NCBI RefSeq assembly: GCF_024362485.1
Contig: NZ_CP101456.1
Span: 3,286,001-3,350,000 of the forward strand
From: Natronobeatus ordinarius
Lineage (GTDB): Archaea > Halobacteriota > Halobacteria > Halobacteriales > Natrialbaceae
DNA length: 64,000 bases
Direction: 5' to 3'
Part shown: positions 41,401 through 51,774 of the stretch, piece by piece
Layout: each line of letters opens with the position of its first letter
Numbering within the stretch: the first letter of the stretch is position 1
Position numbers and translations under genes: made by a program
Notes under the pieces: model-generated
Seen by the model: the letters and a program-made list of their open reading frames with translations, nothing else
Database searches by the model: none
Told to the model about the DNA's origin: nothing

Positions 41401-41483
41401 GACGGCCGTCCCGGAGCCGACGCCGGTCGGCGGGCGAAAAATCGGACGATTTAACCGTCACAGTTGCGTAGCCTCGGCTGCGT

Positions 41484-41566
41484 GCGAGGGTAGCCAAGCG
41501 GCCAACGGCGGCGGACTCAAGATCCGCTCTCGTAGGAGTTCGTGGGTTCGATTCCCTCCCCTCGCA
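41484..41566 (+). tRNA. tRNA-Leu (CAA)
   Basis: The 83-nt sequence has acceptor GCGAGGG/CCUCGC-type pairing, a long variable arm typical of class II tRNA, anticodon arm GCGGA-CUCAAGA-UCCGC with anticodon CAA, and T arm GUGGG-UUCGAUU-CCCUC region. It decodes UUG leucine codons. Confidence 0.93.
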
Positions 41567-41705
41567 TTGCAGTGAGGCGCACACCGCGCCGAACGAAAAT
41601 GCGGAAGGTCCTGCAGTAGCGATCTTCCCTCGCAAAGCTTCTGCAGAAGAGCCACCAGTAGTAGGTAGTAGTAACACTTTTATCAGAAAATGATAGTTGA
41701 CTTCC

Positions 41706-44700
41706 ATGGGGATATTCGACTCCAATGGTAATAGTGGCTTGAGGCGACGATCCTTCTTGACCGCCCTGGGTGCAACCATGGGCGGCCTCGCGGTTGGCTC
41801 ATCGGCCACTCACGCGGACGACTTCGACAGCGGCGAGACGGGCGTTCCGGTCGTAGACGGCCAGCTCGCTCAGCTGGGATTCTACTCGAGTGCGAGTCAG
41901 ATCGCCGCCGACGGCGAACGCGAGCTGACGGCCGACGACCACGTGGTGGTGTGGGCCGAGCCCACCGCCGAGAACTTCGAAACGACTGCCGACGGACCTG
42001 AAACGGTCGTCTACGAGGATGCGGACATCCCACTCGTCTCCGAGGACGGCCGGGTGGTCGGCTTCGGCTCCGTCGACTTCGTCAGTGACAATCACGGTGG
42101 CTTTCGCTTCGGCAACGAACAGTTCCTCGTCAACCTCTTCGATGAGAAACTCGGCGGCGAGGGGACGATTCTCTGGGACGAGGGCCACGGCCAGTTCGGG
42201 GGGCTCGCCCTCGAGAACTACGAGTCCTTCCGCCAGTACTGCGCCGATGCGGGCTACACCCTCGAGGCGACGGAGTCGCTGCTCGAGACCGAGATCACGA
42301 CGCTGACCGTCGATTCGACGGCCAGCCTCGTCGACGTCGACGGCACGGCGCTTACGAACCCCGAATACGTCGTGGTGTGGGCCGAGTCAACCGCAACCAA
42401 CGTCGATCGGGAGGACGACGACGCCTATCTCTACGGGGACGACGAGGACATCCCGCTGATCGCCAAGGCGGGCCAGGTCGTCGGGTTCGGTGGCGTCGGC
42501 TTCATCGCCGACAGCAACTTCGACAACTTTACCGAGGCCAACGAGGCGTTCGTCCTCGAGGTGCTCGCGGACGTCACCGACGGCGAGGGCACCCTGCTCT
42601 GGGACGAAGCCCACGACACGTTCTGGGACGCCGACGCCATCAGCGACTTCGCGGCTGCCGTCGAGGACGACGGCTACGACTTCCAGGCCGTCAGCGAGCT
42701 GGAGGGGTCCGACTCGCTGGAGGAACTCGAGTTCTTCTCGACGGCGAGTCTGCTCACCGCAGAGTATACCCCGCTGACCGACGAGTCGCTGGTGGCCGTT
42801 CACGCCGAGTCGACGGCGACGAACGAAGACGCGGGCGACTCCGGCGGGGCCGGCGAGTCAGGAGGTGACGACGAAGTCACGCTGGCGGTCGATTCCGTGG
42901 AGGCGGGGGCGACTGCCGAACACGTCTGGACGCTCGCCGGTGCGGACGTCGACTTCGAGGGAGAGATCGACGAACTCGTGCTCGAGTACCCAGAGAGCGC
43001 AGCGTTCGACGGCCTCACGAACGACGACGTGACCGTCGTGTTGACCCGTGAACTCGCCGACGGGGTGGACACGGAGGAAATCAGCGTCAACCAGGGTGCG
43101 TACGACGGCTCAAGTGCGACGCTCGATCTGAGCGGCGCCATGACAACGAACATCGTCGGCGAATCCACCGTCACCATCGAGGGGCTCACGAACCCCGACA
43201 GCGAGGACTTCACGGCGACGATCACGCTCACCGGCGACGACGAGGTTACCCTCGAGGCCGTGGTCGGGGCGGGTGGAGCCGGAAGCGGCGACTTCGTTCC
43301 CTACCCGGACGACGTCGACATCCCGCTGGTGGCCGTCGACGGCGGCGCCGTGGGGATCGGGGCCGAACTCGCACCGGACGCGAGTGACGTCGACGACAAT
43401 CGGGCGTTCCTCGTGAACGCCTGGGCCGACCGACTCGGCGGAACCGGGAGTGTCCTGTACGACGAGGGCCACGGCCAGGAACTCGCCCTCGAGGACTACA
43501 GCCAGCTCGAGTCCCTGGCGACCAGCCGCGGCTTCGACGTCGAGGCGACCACGGACCTCGAGGACGACCTCGCAGACGCCGACCTCCTGATGGTCACCAC
43601 GCCCGCCGAGTCGTTCTCGGGGGACGAACTGACAGCCCTCGCGGCGTTCGTCGACGACGGCGGGGCCCTTTTCCTGCACGACGAGGCGAACTTCGAGGGT
43701 GACGGGACAGAGGAACTGAACGAGATCGCCGCCGCCCTCGAGCTGGCGTTCCGGTTCAACGCCGATCAGGTGGTCGACGACGAACACAGCGGTTTCGCCC
43801 CGTTCGTCCCCCGTACGAGCGCGTTCAACACCGATTTCGACTTCTTCGGGGATGGCGACACCCTCGAGAACGCGGCCGTCTTCGTGACCGCCTCGCCCGC
43901 ACAAGCGTTCAGCGACGCCGAACGCACCGCGCTCGAGGAGTTCGTCGCCGACGGCGGCGCCGTCTTCCTCTTCGACGAGTCCGAGTTCGCCAACGAGGAG
44001 ACCGACAACCTGAACGCCATCGCCGAGGCCCTCGACGTCCCGTTCCGGTTCAACGCCGACCAGGTCGAAGACGCCGAGAACAATGCGGGGGTGGAGTACG
44101 TGCCGACGACCGGAAACTTCAACGAGGGCTTCGAGTACTTTGGGGAGGTCGACGGTCCGACGCTCAGCGACGGCGATGGACTGGTCGTGATGACACCCGA
44201 GCAGTCGTTCTCGAACGCGGAGTTGAACGCCCTCGCGGCGTTCGTCGACGACGGCGGCGCGCTGTTCATCTTCGACCAGTCGGACTTCGGCGGCCAGGGG
44301 AACGAGGCCGTCGGCTTCGACGAAACGGAGAACCTGAACGAAATCGCCGACGCCCTCGAGCTGGCGTTCCGGTTCAACGCAGATCAGGTGAACGACGAGG
44401 AAAACTTCAACATCACGACGGGGAATTTCAACGACGACTTCGCGTACTTCGACGAACGCGAGCAGTCTATCGCCATCCCGTTCGAACAGGGCGGTGCGTA
44501 TTACGGTCGGGTCGTTCGAGTGTTCGACGGAGACACCTTCGAGGTCGAGTTCGACAGCGAGTACGACTACCGGGACGTGATCCGCCACATCGGTATCGAC
44601 ACGGCCGAGACAGCGCCAGCGACGAACGATCCCGAGGAGTGGTTCGGGATCGAGGACCTCGATCACCTCGACACCTGGGGATCGAAGGCGACTGACTTCT

Positions 44701-45911
44701 CACTCGACGTCATGGCCCCCGGAGCCGACGCCGGCGAGCCGAACGTCGAAGGGCGGCGGGTCAAGATGACGTTCGACCCCGTCGAGCCCAAGCGCGGCAA
44801 CTACGGCCGCCTGCTGATGTACATGCACTACGATCCCGACGACTTCGACGCCGATCCTGGGGCGGACTTTGCGGTGAACTACAACCGTGAAACCATCGAA
44901 AAGGGGTACGCTCGCATCTACTCCTCGGGTTTCTCCAAACACGACGAGTGGGCCGAACTCGAGGAAGCCGCCCTCGAAGCGGGCACCGGCGTCTGGAGTG
45001 CAGCCGACTTCGACGCCCTCGAGAAAATTCGCAACGAGCCCGTCGAGAAACTGTTCGTTCCCGAGGCCCGAAGCATCCACAGCCGTCGAGGTCGCCGCGG
45101 CGGACGTCTCGGGGCCGACCGCGTCCCCGTCTACGCGGGGGAGACGGCCGAGCAGGTACGCGAAGAGGGGGCCGTGGCGTACGACGACGCTCCCCTGGTC
45201 GCCGTGGACGATCGGAAGAACCTCGCGCTCGTCGGCGGGCTCATGATCCACGAACGGTACGAGAAAGCAGCGGGGTTCGTCGACACGACGGACTACGGCA
45301 ACTTCCCGTTCCTCGCGAATCTCATCGACTCTCTGTCGACGACCGAAGGCGACGTGTTCATCGCCGGCGGCCAGGGGCAGTTCAACGCACCCGGCTCGAT
45401 CTCCCTCGAGCGCTGTCAGTACTTCCTGCGATACCTCGAGGGACTCGGCACCCGCCTCCGGCAGGTCAACGACCTCGAGGACACCCTCGCGGCCGAGGAC
45501 GAACCGCCGCGGGCGGTGATCATCACGGCACCCGAGCGTGAACTCGGCATCGGCGAGGTCATTGCCCTCCGGCAGTTCCGCAACGACGGCGGTGCGGTGA
45601 TCCTCATGGGTAGCGCCGAGGCGACGACCGAGGACGTAGCGAACCTGAACGAACTCGCTCAGGGGCTGAACTCCGATCTCCGGTTCAACCACGATCGAAT
45701 CGTCGACCCAGCGGCGAATCTGAACGACGATCCGGGGATCCTCGAGACCGACGTCTTCACCGACGGATTCGACCTGTTCGACGCCGCGGACCTCGAAGCC
45801 GAGACCGAAGACGACGGTCGTTCGGGCCGGGGTAATGCGGGGGACAACGGCCGTGGTCGCGGTCACAGGAACGCCAACGTCCGTCAGGGGTTCGGGGCGA
45901 CCGGTCGGTGA
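41706..45911 (+). CDS. Secreted multidomain protein with thermonuclease (SNase) domain and DUF4350-like repeats
   Basis: The 1401-residue protein starts with a Tat signal, LRRRSFLTALGATMGG. The N-terminal ~930 residues hold about five related units resembling DUF4350/GATase-like modules, with recurring DEGHGQ, AAFVDDGGALF, ELAFRFNADQV and FNEGFEYF motifs; a beta-sandwich lies at about 395-520. A complete SNase domain follows at about 930-1095, with catalytic residues recognisable in RVFDGDTFEVEF (Asp), VIRHIGIDTAE (Arg, Asp, Glu) and YGRLLMY (Arg). A further unit and a Gly/Arg/Asn-rich tail end it. Extracellular nucleic-acid degradation is inferred. Confidence 0.85.
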   Translation: MGIFDSNGNSGLRRRSFLTALGATMGGLAVGSSATHADDFDSGETGVPVVDGQLAQLGFYSSASQIAADGERELTADDHVVVWAEPTAENFETTADGPETVVYEDADIPLVSEDGRVVGFGSVDFVSDNHGGFRFGNEQFLVNLFDEKLGGEGTILWDEGHGQFGGLALENYESFRQYCADAGYTLEATESLLETEITTLTVDSTASLVDVDGTALTNPEYVVVWAESTATNVDREDDDAYLYGDDEDIPLIAKAGQVVGFGGVGFIADSNFDNFTEANEAFVLEVLADVTDGEGTLLWDEAHDTFWDADAISDFAAAVEDDGYDFQAVSELEGSDSLEELEFFSTASLLTAEYTPLTDESLVAVHAESTATNEDAGDSGGAGESGGDDEVTLAVDSVEAGATAEHVWTLAGADVDFEGEIDELVLEYPESAAFDGLTNDDVTVVLTRELADGVDTEEISVNQGAYDGSSATLDLSGAMTTNIVGESTVTIEGLTNPDSEDFTATITLTGDDEVTLEAVVGAGGAGSGDFVPYPDDVDIPLVAVDGGAVGIGAELAPDASDVDDNRAFLVNAWADRLGGTGSVLYDEGHGQELALEDYSQLESLATSRGFDVEATTDLEDDLADADLLMVTTPAESFSGDELTALAAFVDDGGALFLHDEANFEGDGTEELNEIAAALELAFRFNADQVVDDEHSGFAPFVPRTSAFNTDFDFFGDGDTLENAAVFVTASPAQAFSDAERTALEEFVADGGAVFLFDESEFANEETDNLNAIAEALDVPFRFNADQVEDAENNAGVEYVPTTGNFNEGFEYFGEVDGPTLSDGDGLVVMTPEQSFSNAELNALAAFVDDGGALFIFDQSDFGGQGNEAVGFDETENLNEIADALELAFRFNADQVNDEENFNITTGNFNDDFAYFDEREQSIAIPFEQGGAYYGRVVRVFDGDTFEVEFDSEYDYRDVIRHIGIDTAETAPATNDPEEWFGIEDLDHLDTWGSKATDFSLDVMAPGADAGEPNVEGRRVKMTFDPVEPKRGNYGRLLMYMHYDPDDFDADPGADFAVNYNRETIEKGYARIYSSGFSKHDEWAELEEAALEAGTGVWSAADFDALEKIRNEPVEKLFVPEARSIHSRRGRRGGRLGADRVPVYAGETAEQVREEGAVAYDDAPLVAVDDRKNLALVGGLMIHERYEKAAGFVDTTDYGNFPFLANLIDSLSTTEGDVFIAGGQGQFNAPGSISLERCQYFLRYLEGLGTRLRQVNDLEDTLAAEDEPPRAVIITAPERELGIGEVIALRQFRNDGGAVILMGSAEATTEDVANLNELAQGLNSDLRFNHDRIVDPAANLNDDPGILETDVFTDGFDLFDAADLEAETEDDGRSGRGNAGDNGRGRGHRNANVRQGFGATGR

Positions 45912-49742: not shown

Positions 49743-50016
49743 CGTCGATCACCTCGCGCAACGAAGAAGCATCTAGAATCGACGCGGAACTCGATCCATC
49801 GTCTGTGCGACCATGTACTACGCACCTGAGCGAGGCGCAGGGAAAAAGGTGACGTTCAGGGCGAGTGGTGCGAGCGGACGACGACCGGGCCAGCGTGGGC
49901 GCCTGGCTTCGGTCAACAGTGGCCCCCGCCGTCACCCAATGCCTAATTTAGAGTGGGCTAATGTAGAGATTCATCTCGGCAAATTTATTACGTCCGTTGG
50001 GTCAGCTAGTAACCAG
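49743..50016. promoter_or_regulatory. Promoter region of metal regulator
   Basis: The ~270-base spacer lies between the divergently placed DUF7388-like gene and sirR. It contains the operator at 49947-49961 and AAATTTATTA at 49981-49990, a TATA-like box 27-36 bases before ATG 50017. No gene is evident in it. Confidence 0.55.
49947..49961 (+). promoter_or_regulatory. Metal-box operator A (sirR promoter)
   Basis: T-TTAG-AGTGGG-CTAA carries TTAG (49948-49951) and CTAA (49958-49961) with a 6-bp gap, matching operators B, D and E. The preceding GCCTAA is another half-site. It lies ~20 bases upstream of the TATA-like box of the regulator gene, so autoregulation is inferred. Confidence 0.55.
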
Positions 50017-50706
50017 ATGGCCCTCAGTCCAGTCGCGGAGGACTACCTGAAAGCGATTTATCGGCTCGAGGAGCAGTATTCGCGACCGGTCCGAACCGTG
50101 GAGATCGCCGACGCCGTCGGGGTGACCTCGCCGTCGGTGACGAGTATGGTCGAAACGCTCGACGAGCGTGGACTCGTGGCGTCCACCCCCTACAAGGGCG
50201 TCGAGTTGACCGAAGCGGGTGAGGCAGTCGTGCTGAACCTCGTCAGGAAACACCGCCTGCTGGAGACGTTCCTGGTGGAGTGTCTCGAGGTTCCCTGGAC
50301 CGACGTTCACCGGGAAGCCGACCGACTCGAGCACCACCTCAGCGACGAGTTGGCCCGGCGACTCGAGGTGTTTCTCGGCGGGCCAGCGACGGACCCCCAC
50401 GGCGATCCGATCCCCGACGCGGCGTTGACCGTTCCGGACGACCGCTCGTACACCCCGCTGACCGAGTACGACGTCGGCGAGAGCGTCGTCGTCGACCGGG
50501 TTCCGCACCGCGACCGCGACGTCCGTGAACACCTGTTCGAGAACGGAATCGAGCTAGGGGTGGAACTGTCCCTCGAGGCGGTGACGCCGGTCGGGATCGT
50601 CGACGTCGTCCCCACCGACTCCGATCGTCCCGTCTCCCTGCCCACGCAGCTCGCACGACGGATCGGCGCTCGAGCGACGCTACAGCAGGAGACGGACAGG
50701 ATTTAG
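50017..50706 (+). CDS. sirR: DtxR/MntR-family metal-dependent repressor (SirR-like)
   Basis: The 229-residue protein has the DtxR winged HTH (about 1-60, VTSPSVTSMVETLDERGLV), the dimer/metal domain (60-140) and a C-terminal FeoA/SH3 domain. Metal ligands align with DtxR numbering: H79-type HRLLE, H98, then E105 and H106; position 102 is Asp instead of the Cys of iron-type DtxR, pointing to manganese-type sensing. It is the first gene of the metal cluster; operator B overlaps its stop codon. Confidence 0.9.
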   Translation: MALSPVAEDYLKAIYRLEEQYSRPVRTVEIADAVGVTSPSVTSMVETLDERGLVASTPYKGVELTEAGEAVVLNLVRKHRLLETFLVECLEVPWTDVHREADRLEHHLSDELARRLEVFLGGPATDPHGDPIPDAALTVPDDRSYTPLTEYDVGESVVVDRVPHRDRDVREHLFENGIELGVELSLEAVTPVGIVDVVPTDSDRPVSLPTQLARRIGARATLQQETDRI

Positions 50707-50735
50707 ATTAGGCTAAACTATAAATTAGGTCCAAC
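50703..50735 (+). promoter_or_regulatory. Metal-box operator B and promoter (metal ABC importer)
   Basis: TTAGATTAGGCTAAACTAT (50703-50721) matches 16 of 19 positions of the iron-box consensus of DtxR/IdeR regulators. ACTATAAATTAGG immediately after gives a TATA box at about 50718-50724, so bound repressor would block it. The binding-protein gene begins at 50770. Confidence 0.65.
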
Positions 50736-50769
50736 AAACTCAAGTAGGGTGCTCGTGAACGAGGAACTG

Positions 50770-51774
50770 ATGAGATCCGACCCATCTAACGGAAACGGCT
50801 CACGTCTCGTCTCGCGGCGGAACTTCACTGCGGTCACTGCGGGCGCACTCACCGTTGGGCTCGCTGGCTGTTTCGGGGACGACCCACAGGACGACGAGGG
50901 AGACGGAACCGGCGACGCCACCGACGGAGACGCGGAGTTCACCGTCTTCGCATCGATGCCCGCCGTCTGGGATTTCGTCCGACAGACCGCAGGCGAACAC
51001 ATGGAGGCGATCGATCTGGTTCCGGTCGGCGAACACGGCCACGACTGGACGCCCAGACCCGGGATCGTCCAGGAGATCGACGAAGGCGACGGCTTCGTCT
51101 ACCTGCGGGACTTCGCGTCCTGGCAGGACGACGCCGCCGACCAGCTCGAAGAACGCGACGACGTCGTCGTAATCGAGGCCTCAGAGGGGATCGACTTCTT
51201 CGACAGTCCGGCGGAGGACAACGACGAGCACTGGTGGATGGACCCCGTCGAGTGCCAGCACGGCGTCGAAAACATTGCCGACGGCCTCGCCGAGATCGAC
51301 CCCGACAACGCCGACGATTACGAGGCAAACGCCGCGGCGTTCAACGAGGAACTCGAGGCACTCAACGACGACATCCACGAGGTCGTCGACCGGGCGGAAC
51401 TCGAGGACGTCGTCGTCGCCACCCACGACTCCTTCCAGTGGTGGAACCGTCGCTACGGCATCAACGTCCACTCGCCGGTCGGCACCTCGCCCGACGACGC
51501 GGCGTCGCCGGGTGACGTCGAGGCGATCGAGGAGCTCATCGAGGAGATCGGCATCGAACACGTCCTCTACGACGTCGGCGAACCCGCACCGCTCGCGGAG
51601 TCGCTCGCGGACGAAGTTGACGCGGAGATCCTGCCACTCTCGCCGATCGAAACCCAGATCGACGGCAGTCCGGAGGTCGACCCGACCGTCGAGATGGAAG
51701 CGGACTGGGGGTACGTCGACCACTTCCGGGAGATTAACCTGCCCACGCTCGAGACGGCGCTCAGAGCGGAATAG
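50770..51774 (+). CDS. Metal ABC transporter substrate-binding lipoprotein (ZnuA/TroA-like)
   Basis: The 334-residue protein has a Tat motif SRRNFTAV, a lipobox LAGC and an acidic linker, then the cluster A-I binding fold. Possible metal ligands are H in GEHGHDWTP, H in DEHWWMDPVE, H in ATHDSFQWW and an acid later. The long His-rich loop of zinc-type ZnuA is absent, which fits manganese. Two GTG starts lie upstream in frame; ATG at 50770 is preferred. It is part of the cluster with the ATPase and permease. Confidence 0.88.
   Translation: MRSDPSNGNGSRLVSRRNFTAVTAGALTVGLAGCFGDDPQDDEGDGTGDATDGDAEFTVFASMPAVWDFVRQTAGEHMEAIDLVPVGEHGHDWTPRPGIVQEIDEGDGFVYLRDFASWQDDAADQLEERDDVVVIEASEGIDFFDSPAEDNDEHWWMDPVECQHGVENIADGLAEIDPDNADDYEANAAAFNEELEALNDDIHEVVDRAELEDVVVATHDSFQWWNRRYGINVHSPVGTSPDDAASPGDVEAIEELIEEIGIEHVLYDVGEPAPLAESLADEVDAEILPLSPIETQIDGSPEVDPTVEMEADWGYVDHFREINLPTLETALRAE

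Follow-up and report, generated by a model that had tools for sequence, protein, structure and literature searches.

The 64,000-nucleotide stretch of the haloarchaeal chromosome of Natronobeatus ordinarius studied here (contig NZ_CP101456.1, positions 3,286,001 to 3,350,000; hereafter the window) carries on its forward strand an open reading frame (ATG at 41706, stop codon at 45909-45911) for a protein of 1401 residues in which an SNase (thermonuclease) domain is joined to repeated units. Each unit is one GATase/GIFT-like domain that falls into two halves, A and B, and the protein, which has four halves of each kind, is probably an exported SNase nuclease that grew by repeated insertion of a unit into an A/B junction, giving the arrangement A1(A2(A3[Ig]B3)B2)B1-SNase-A B, where Ig denotes an immunoglobulin-like domain. 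This reading draws on the catalytic set of the nuclease, the bookkeeping of A and B halves, the recurrence of the same architecture throughout Halobacteria and the way in which the halves nest, each of them demonstrated or strongly supported.

Layout of the protein

The polypeptide starts with GLRRRSFLTALGATMGG, which includes a twin-arginine translocation (Tat)-type motif; the original prediction, made from the DNA letters alone, of a 1401-residue Tat substrate at 41706-45911 was borne out in both the reading frame and the motif. The signal region has no lipobox cysteine, the only cysteines of the whole protein being residues 179 and 1237, and no transmembrane-like stretch was found along the protein (the highest 19-residue hydropathy mean was 1.5). 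Pfam profiles for DUF4350 (PF14258; 80.6 bits against a cut-off of 30.4), ABC_transp_aux (86.2 bits, over its cut-off) and IFT52_GIFT (PF23355; 62.5 bits against 27.2) each matched four stretches.

Self-comparison of the protein revealed two kinds of block, the A half with the motif hhhDExHgQ and the B half with GGAhFL...FRFNxDQV. A halves lie at about residues 55-192, 198-330, 333-618 (with an insert) and 1112-1260, and B halves at about 619-716, 717-815, 816-925 and 1266-1362. The order on the N-terminal side of the SNase domain is A-A-A-B-B-B, with the Ig-like domain within the third unit, and one ordinary A-B unit stands on the C-terminal side. Units of GATase/DUF4350-like type were expected to flank the nuclease on both sides, and the self-comparison places them there. 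The motif FRFNADQV, anticipated at least three times, occurs at 682, 780 and 888, always in an N-terminal B half; a fourth, related copy (LRFN at 1325) belongs to the C-terminal unit. The repeated DUF4350-like modules of the original prediction are recognizable as GATase/GIFT-like units, but those of the N-terminal part resolve, on the evidence given below, into halves of mutually nested domains and not into complete tandem modules. The features of the gene, in window coordinates, are:

41706-41816 (+): Tat-type signal region, residues 1-37, RRRSFL, without lipobox Cys (sequence)
41868-42281 (+): A half of unit 1, the outermost, residues 55-192, motif LWDEGHGQF (self-comparison, profiles)
42297-42695 (+): A half of unit 2, residues 198-330, motif LWDEAHDTF (self-comparison, profiles)
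42702-42845 (+): unit 3, A half up to the Ig insert, residues 333-380 (alignment with Ig-free relatives; joins A3 and B3 in the IMPa fold match)
42846-43280 (+): Ig-like beta-sandwich within unit 3, residues 381-525 (missing from six relatives; pilin/MSCRAMM-like fold, Z about 8)
43281-43559 (+): unit 3, A half after the Ig insert, residues 526-618, motif LYDEGHGQE (self-comparison, profiles)
43560-43853 (+): B half of unit 3, the innermost, residues 619-716, FRFNADQV at 682 (self-comparison, profiles)
43854-44150 (+): B half of unit 2, residues 717-815, FRFNADQV at 780 (self-comparison, profiles)
44151-44480 (+): B half of unit 1, the outermost, residues 816-925, FRFNADQV at 888 (self-comparison, profiles, nearest-relative comparison)
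44496-45014 (+): SNase (thermonuclease) domain, residues 931-1103, catalytic D943, R960, D965, T966, E968 and R1035 (Pfam, NCBIfam, alignment)
45039-45485 (+): A half of the C-terminal unit, residues 1112-1260, motif AGGQGQF (self-comparison, profiles)
45501-45791 (+): B half of the C-terminal unit, residues 1266-1362 (self-comparison, profiles)
45819-45908 (+): Gly/Arg/Asn-rich basic tail, residues 1372-1401 (sequence)

The protein is otherwise very acidic, and its basic Arg/Gly-rich stretches, at residues of about 1127-1143 (SRRGRRGGR, after the SNase domain) and in the tail, are possible points of contact with DNA.

Nested relations of the A and B halves

All collected relatives were scanned with profiles made for the A half, the B half, the Ig-like domain and each of the two parts of the SNase domain, counts being taken from intact genes (L numbers below denote loci of relatives). 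The number of A halves equaled the number of B halves in 76 of 79 intact relatives, against a mean of 24 and a maximum of 41 after shuffling, a difference whose significance is overstated because the relatives share ancestry. The three unequal cases comprise L062 and L078, frame-broken genes for which the missing halves turned up in another frame, and L121, on a contig with 206 Ns. The L062 locus of Natrialba asiatica, which contains one N, encodes its three A halves in one reading frame and its three B halves in a second.

Every A/B string found among the relatives was well-nested. The commonest, AB-SNase-AB, was present in 33 relatives, followed by AAABBB-SNase-AB, either carrying the Ig-like domain or lacking it (12, the window protein included) and AABB-SNase-AB (8). 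SNase-AB occurred in four relatives and, with a C-terminal Ig-like domain, in one more; AA-Ig-BB-SNase-AB was seen once, and two relatives had a tandem C-terminal AB pair. One or two whole AB units also interrupt the SNase domain itself in 12 relatives (L073, L075, L126, L048, L076, L077, L079, L115-L118 and L122), always at one site, between ERPEEWEGL and the YPYLxxW region. Alignment showed that the Ig-like insert (residues 381-525) is missing from L034, L036, L058, L060, L061 and L067. Proteins of 430 residues with one A-B unit and no SNase domain are encoded beside AB-SNase-AB genes at L124:2128-3432, L123:2506-3801, L143:6470-7759 and L144:7308-8597.

Nesting of the N-terminal units as A1(A2(A3 B3)B2)B1 is supported by the equal and co-varying counts of A and B halves, by the relatedness of individual halves, by a chimera found in Natronosalvus and by two AlphaFold models. 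When AABB and AAABBB proteins were compared by nearest relative, the first A paired with the first A and the last B with the last B; growth therefore took place at the center. The chimera is represented by two Natronosalvus plasmid proteins, L045 and L046. For their outer B1 the nearest proteins are plainly single-unit ones (L104, L107 and L108). These also rank nearest to the outer A1, or share first place almost evenly with nested proteins. The halves A2, A3, B3 and B2 most resemble those at the corresponding positions of nested proteins. The SNase domain and C-terminal unit of L046 branch with single-unit proteins (support 100/100). On these sequence relations, the simplest reading is that both proteins are chimeras, the outer unit, SNase domain and C-terminal unit deriving from a single-unit protein, and an inner block from a nested one having been set between the A1 and B1 of that outer unit.

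AlphaFold models of two segments gave structural evidence, with a predicted local distance difference test score (pLDDT) of 78.7 and a predicted template modeling score (pTM) of 0.40 for the 3A3B segment of the window protein, and a pLDDT of 82.8 and a pTM of 0.60 for the AABB segment of the Halopiger djelfimassiliensis protein. Foldseek matches of the window model were dominated by the Ig-like domain. In its best fold match, both parts of A3 aligned together with B3 on residues 90-298 of IMPa, the Ig insert being skipped (Z 12.8, 182 residues). The inner unit of the AABB model (residues 151-383) likewise matched IMPa (Z 12.9, 180 residues aligned). Many alpha/beta domains also aligned with the AABB model over about 150 residues within the range 20-489, at a Z of only 5-6, a pattern that a single domain made of A1 and B1 and enclosing the inner unit would be expected to give.

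The A and B blocks might instead be independent small repeat domains, equal in number through shared ancestry and not as nested halves. The shuffling takes no account of kinship, and local prediction confidence is good for both halves, as this alternative would have it. However, the A and B halves of single-unit proteins lie about 5 residues apart and match one IMPa domain as a pair, A and B numbers shift together in several branches, reading the other frame of the frame-broken genes restores the A/B balance, and the Natronosalvus chimera splits between A1 and B1; we consequently regard independent repeats as improbable. Note that a tree of the SNase domain and C-terminal unit required 12 changes of architecture label against a minimum of 5, some of these labels coming from truncated or broken genes.

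Several observations nevertheless count against growth by self-insertion followed by projection of the units as a stalk, the role considered below. The second-level halves of AABB proteins were ambiguous in the nearest-relative test, and the nesting claim therefore rests on the outer and inner pairs. The two models have pTM values of 0.40 and 0.60, and the pairing of A1 with B1 is indirect, having been read from the end points of alignment ranges in a predicted structure. Neighboring genes are unrelated and vary between relatives, offering no functional clue, and the geometry of a stalk and the nature of the substrate are matters we infer.

The nuclease domain and its distribution

The SNase profile (PF00565) matched residues 959-1098 with 22.9 bits, just over its cut-off of 21. 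The top NCBIfam match was the calcium-activated nuclease EcnA (NF047969) over residues 931-1098, at 86 bits far under the family cut-off of 180. All six key residues of Staphylococcus aureus nuclease (D21, R35, D40, T41, E43 and R87) are present, as D943, R960, D965, T966, E968 and R1035. In S. aureus numbering, D21, R35, D40 and E43 were invariant in 83 of 83 relatives and R87 was kept in 80 of 80, and position 41 held threonine in 80 and serine in 3. The apparently active site of the original prediction accordingly agrees with a catalytic set that is complete and conserved in relatives. Judged from sequence, the SNase domain is very probably active, because disuse would be expected to erode such a set. 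The present gene is the sole SNase-family gene found in the N. ordinarius genome, and most same-family relatives with the nested layout likewise have one.

The original prediction named no described case of the layout, but the layout is not rare: full relatives with both SNase domain and units occur throughout Halobacteria. A profile of the SNase domain and C-terminal unit matched 293 of 391 genomes of the class at E <= 0.001; many of these matches were SNase-only proteins, and about 120 among the matches listed reached over the unit. The SNase-plus-unit architecture is thus widespread in Halobacteria and not unique to the window, carriers including Natrialba, Natronococcus, Halopiger, Natrinema, Haloterrigena, Haladaptatus, Halobacterium, Haloarchaeobius and Halorubellus. 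Among 393 sampled genomes of the phylum, the matches seen outside Halobacteria covered the SNase part only. Databases annotate such proteins as 'PKD domain-containing', 'lamin tail domain-containing' or 'thermonuclease family'.

Possible function

The protein most likely degrades extracellular DNA, as a nuclease that is either secreted or held at the surface, with its non-catalytic units forming a stalk. The Tat system would export it folded, and the SNase domain would cleave extracellular DNA or RNA with Ca2+, like other SNases. Growth of the N-terminal part would have proceeded by repeated insertion of a GATase/GIFT-like unit into the A/B junction of its own copy. The units may project as a stalk from the SNase domain with the Ig-like domain at the tip, because a nested chain brings both ends of each unit back to the base; nesting depth would then set reach or multivalency while leaving the nuclease unmoved. 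A bolder form of this proposal combines recursive self-insertion of the type A^nB^n (n = 1 to 3) and insertion into the SNase domain with a telescoping stalk whose length is set by depth and whose Ig-like tip is held away from the nuclease; we offer it tentatively, as plausible but somewhat less than probable. Probably either the products of cleavage feed nutrient recovery (phosphorus, nitrogen or carbon) or the cleavage remodels biofilm DNA.

The precedent for nutrition is Hvo_1477, an exported SNase lipoprotein required by Haloferax volcanii to grow on extracellular DNA as a phosphorus source (PMC3929857). It resembles the window protein in being a haloarchaeal exported SNase-family protein, and by analogy the latter may work like it. 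However, Hvo_1477 has 327 residues, a lipobox and a lamin tail domain and lacks GATase/GIFT-like units, and the window protein gave no Pfam match to the lamin tail domain (LTD) at E values up to 10. The window protein is therefore not of the Hvo_1477 type, having neither lipobox nor lamin tail. Scavenging of extracellular DNA as a phosphorus source, which the original prediction had suggested, remains plausible through this analogy and through the single SNase gene of the genome. For its other suggestion, a scaffold of units that captures DNA, the results gave no support. Yet no gene for phosphate transport, a phosphatase or a phosphate regulator was found near the nuclease gene in the window, and together with the missing lipobox and lamin tail this makes phosphorus scavenging a possible but rather doubtful main role.

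Equally doubtful, though possible, is that the protein belongs mainly to a matrix or mediates adhesion, with the nuclease remodeling biofilm DNA. The Ig-like insert has a pilin/MSCRAMM-like fold (Z about 8), and extracellular DNA is critical in biofilms of Halorubrum lacusprofundi (PMC5118699). In L034, L035, L036, L037 and L038 the next gene encodes an exported partner protein with CarboxypepD_reg-like domains and C-terminal beta-helix-like repeats, and in three of the five this partner carries the same Ig-like domain as the insert. Four partner genes adjoining the nuclease are:

L034:11446-13992
L035:11143-13848
L036:12067-14568
L037:6499-7851

Repeats similar by eye to those of the partner end the nuclease polypeptide itself in L047 and L065, and partner gene and fused repeats together suggest a link to a surface or matrix structure. 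Nonetheless, the N. ordinarius genome has no partner gene, its sole match being the nuclease's own Ig-like domain, and the window protein is without anchor or transmembrane segment.

Activity of the units themselves, as amidotransferase/ThuA-like enzymes or ABC-transport components, is suggested by the Pfam names ABC_transp_aux and DUF4350 but is highly improbable, given no catalytic cysteine and just two cysteines in the protein, no transmembrane segment and no directly adjoining ABC genes. The consensus of neither half contains a conserved cysteine that could serve as the amidotransferase nucleophile, and because this residue is missing the units would be non-enzymatic.

Gene context

The genes nearest to the nuclease gene encode FmdA (acetamidase), a BAT/HTH_10 regulator, HalOD1, DUF309, HSP20, DAO and creatininase. 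The window also encodes a metal repressor of the DtxR type and, after it, a metal-binding lipoprotein of the ZnuA type (49813-51774, +). A tRNA-Leu gene (CAA; 41483-41567, +) ends 138 bases upstream of the start codon of the nuclease gene. A site flanked by a tRNA could favor gene gain.

Comparison with known systems

The component families are already known, and it is the recursive self-nesting that is surprising. Proteins usually grow by tandem repeats. Our limited search of the open-access literature found no description of one domain family nested in itself at depths of one to three between relatives, nor any paper on DUF4350 in haloarchaea or with SNase. Depths of one, two and three among living relatives provide a natural series for studying the origin, folding and folded Tat export of discontinuous domains. 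The analysis also identifies a widespread haloarchaeal extracellular nuclease as a target for learning how archaea use or remodel extracellular DNA.

EcnA and S. aureus thermonuclease share with the window protein an SNase domain with a complete catalytic set, but they are small enzymes without nested units. The A-B unit has a GATase/GIFT-like alpha/beta fold, similar to the N-terminal domain of IFT52 (Z 8.0). A known fold for the modules had been taken as telling against the original prediction; the fold is indeed known (IFT52 GIFT, IMPa N-terminal domain), but the nuclease is not inactivated thereby. Likeness to IFT52 GIFT, DUF4350 and ABC_transp_aux extends to sequence, over Pfam cut-offs, whereas the units described here are exported, fused to a nuclease and repeatedly nested in their own kind. 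The best fold match of the complete A+B unit, the N-terminal domain of Pseudomonas aeruginosa IMPa (5kdv, 5kdx and 7jtv), is about 11% identical to the unit and differs in being a single, contiguous domain within a metallopeptidase. Nested domain insertions, in which discontinuous host domains hold inserted ones, are reported to go as deep as six levels in the RNA polymerase of cyanobacteria (PMC13114784). In contrast to those proteins, here one family is both host and guest at every level, with a depth of one to three.

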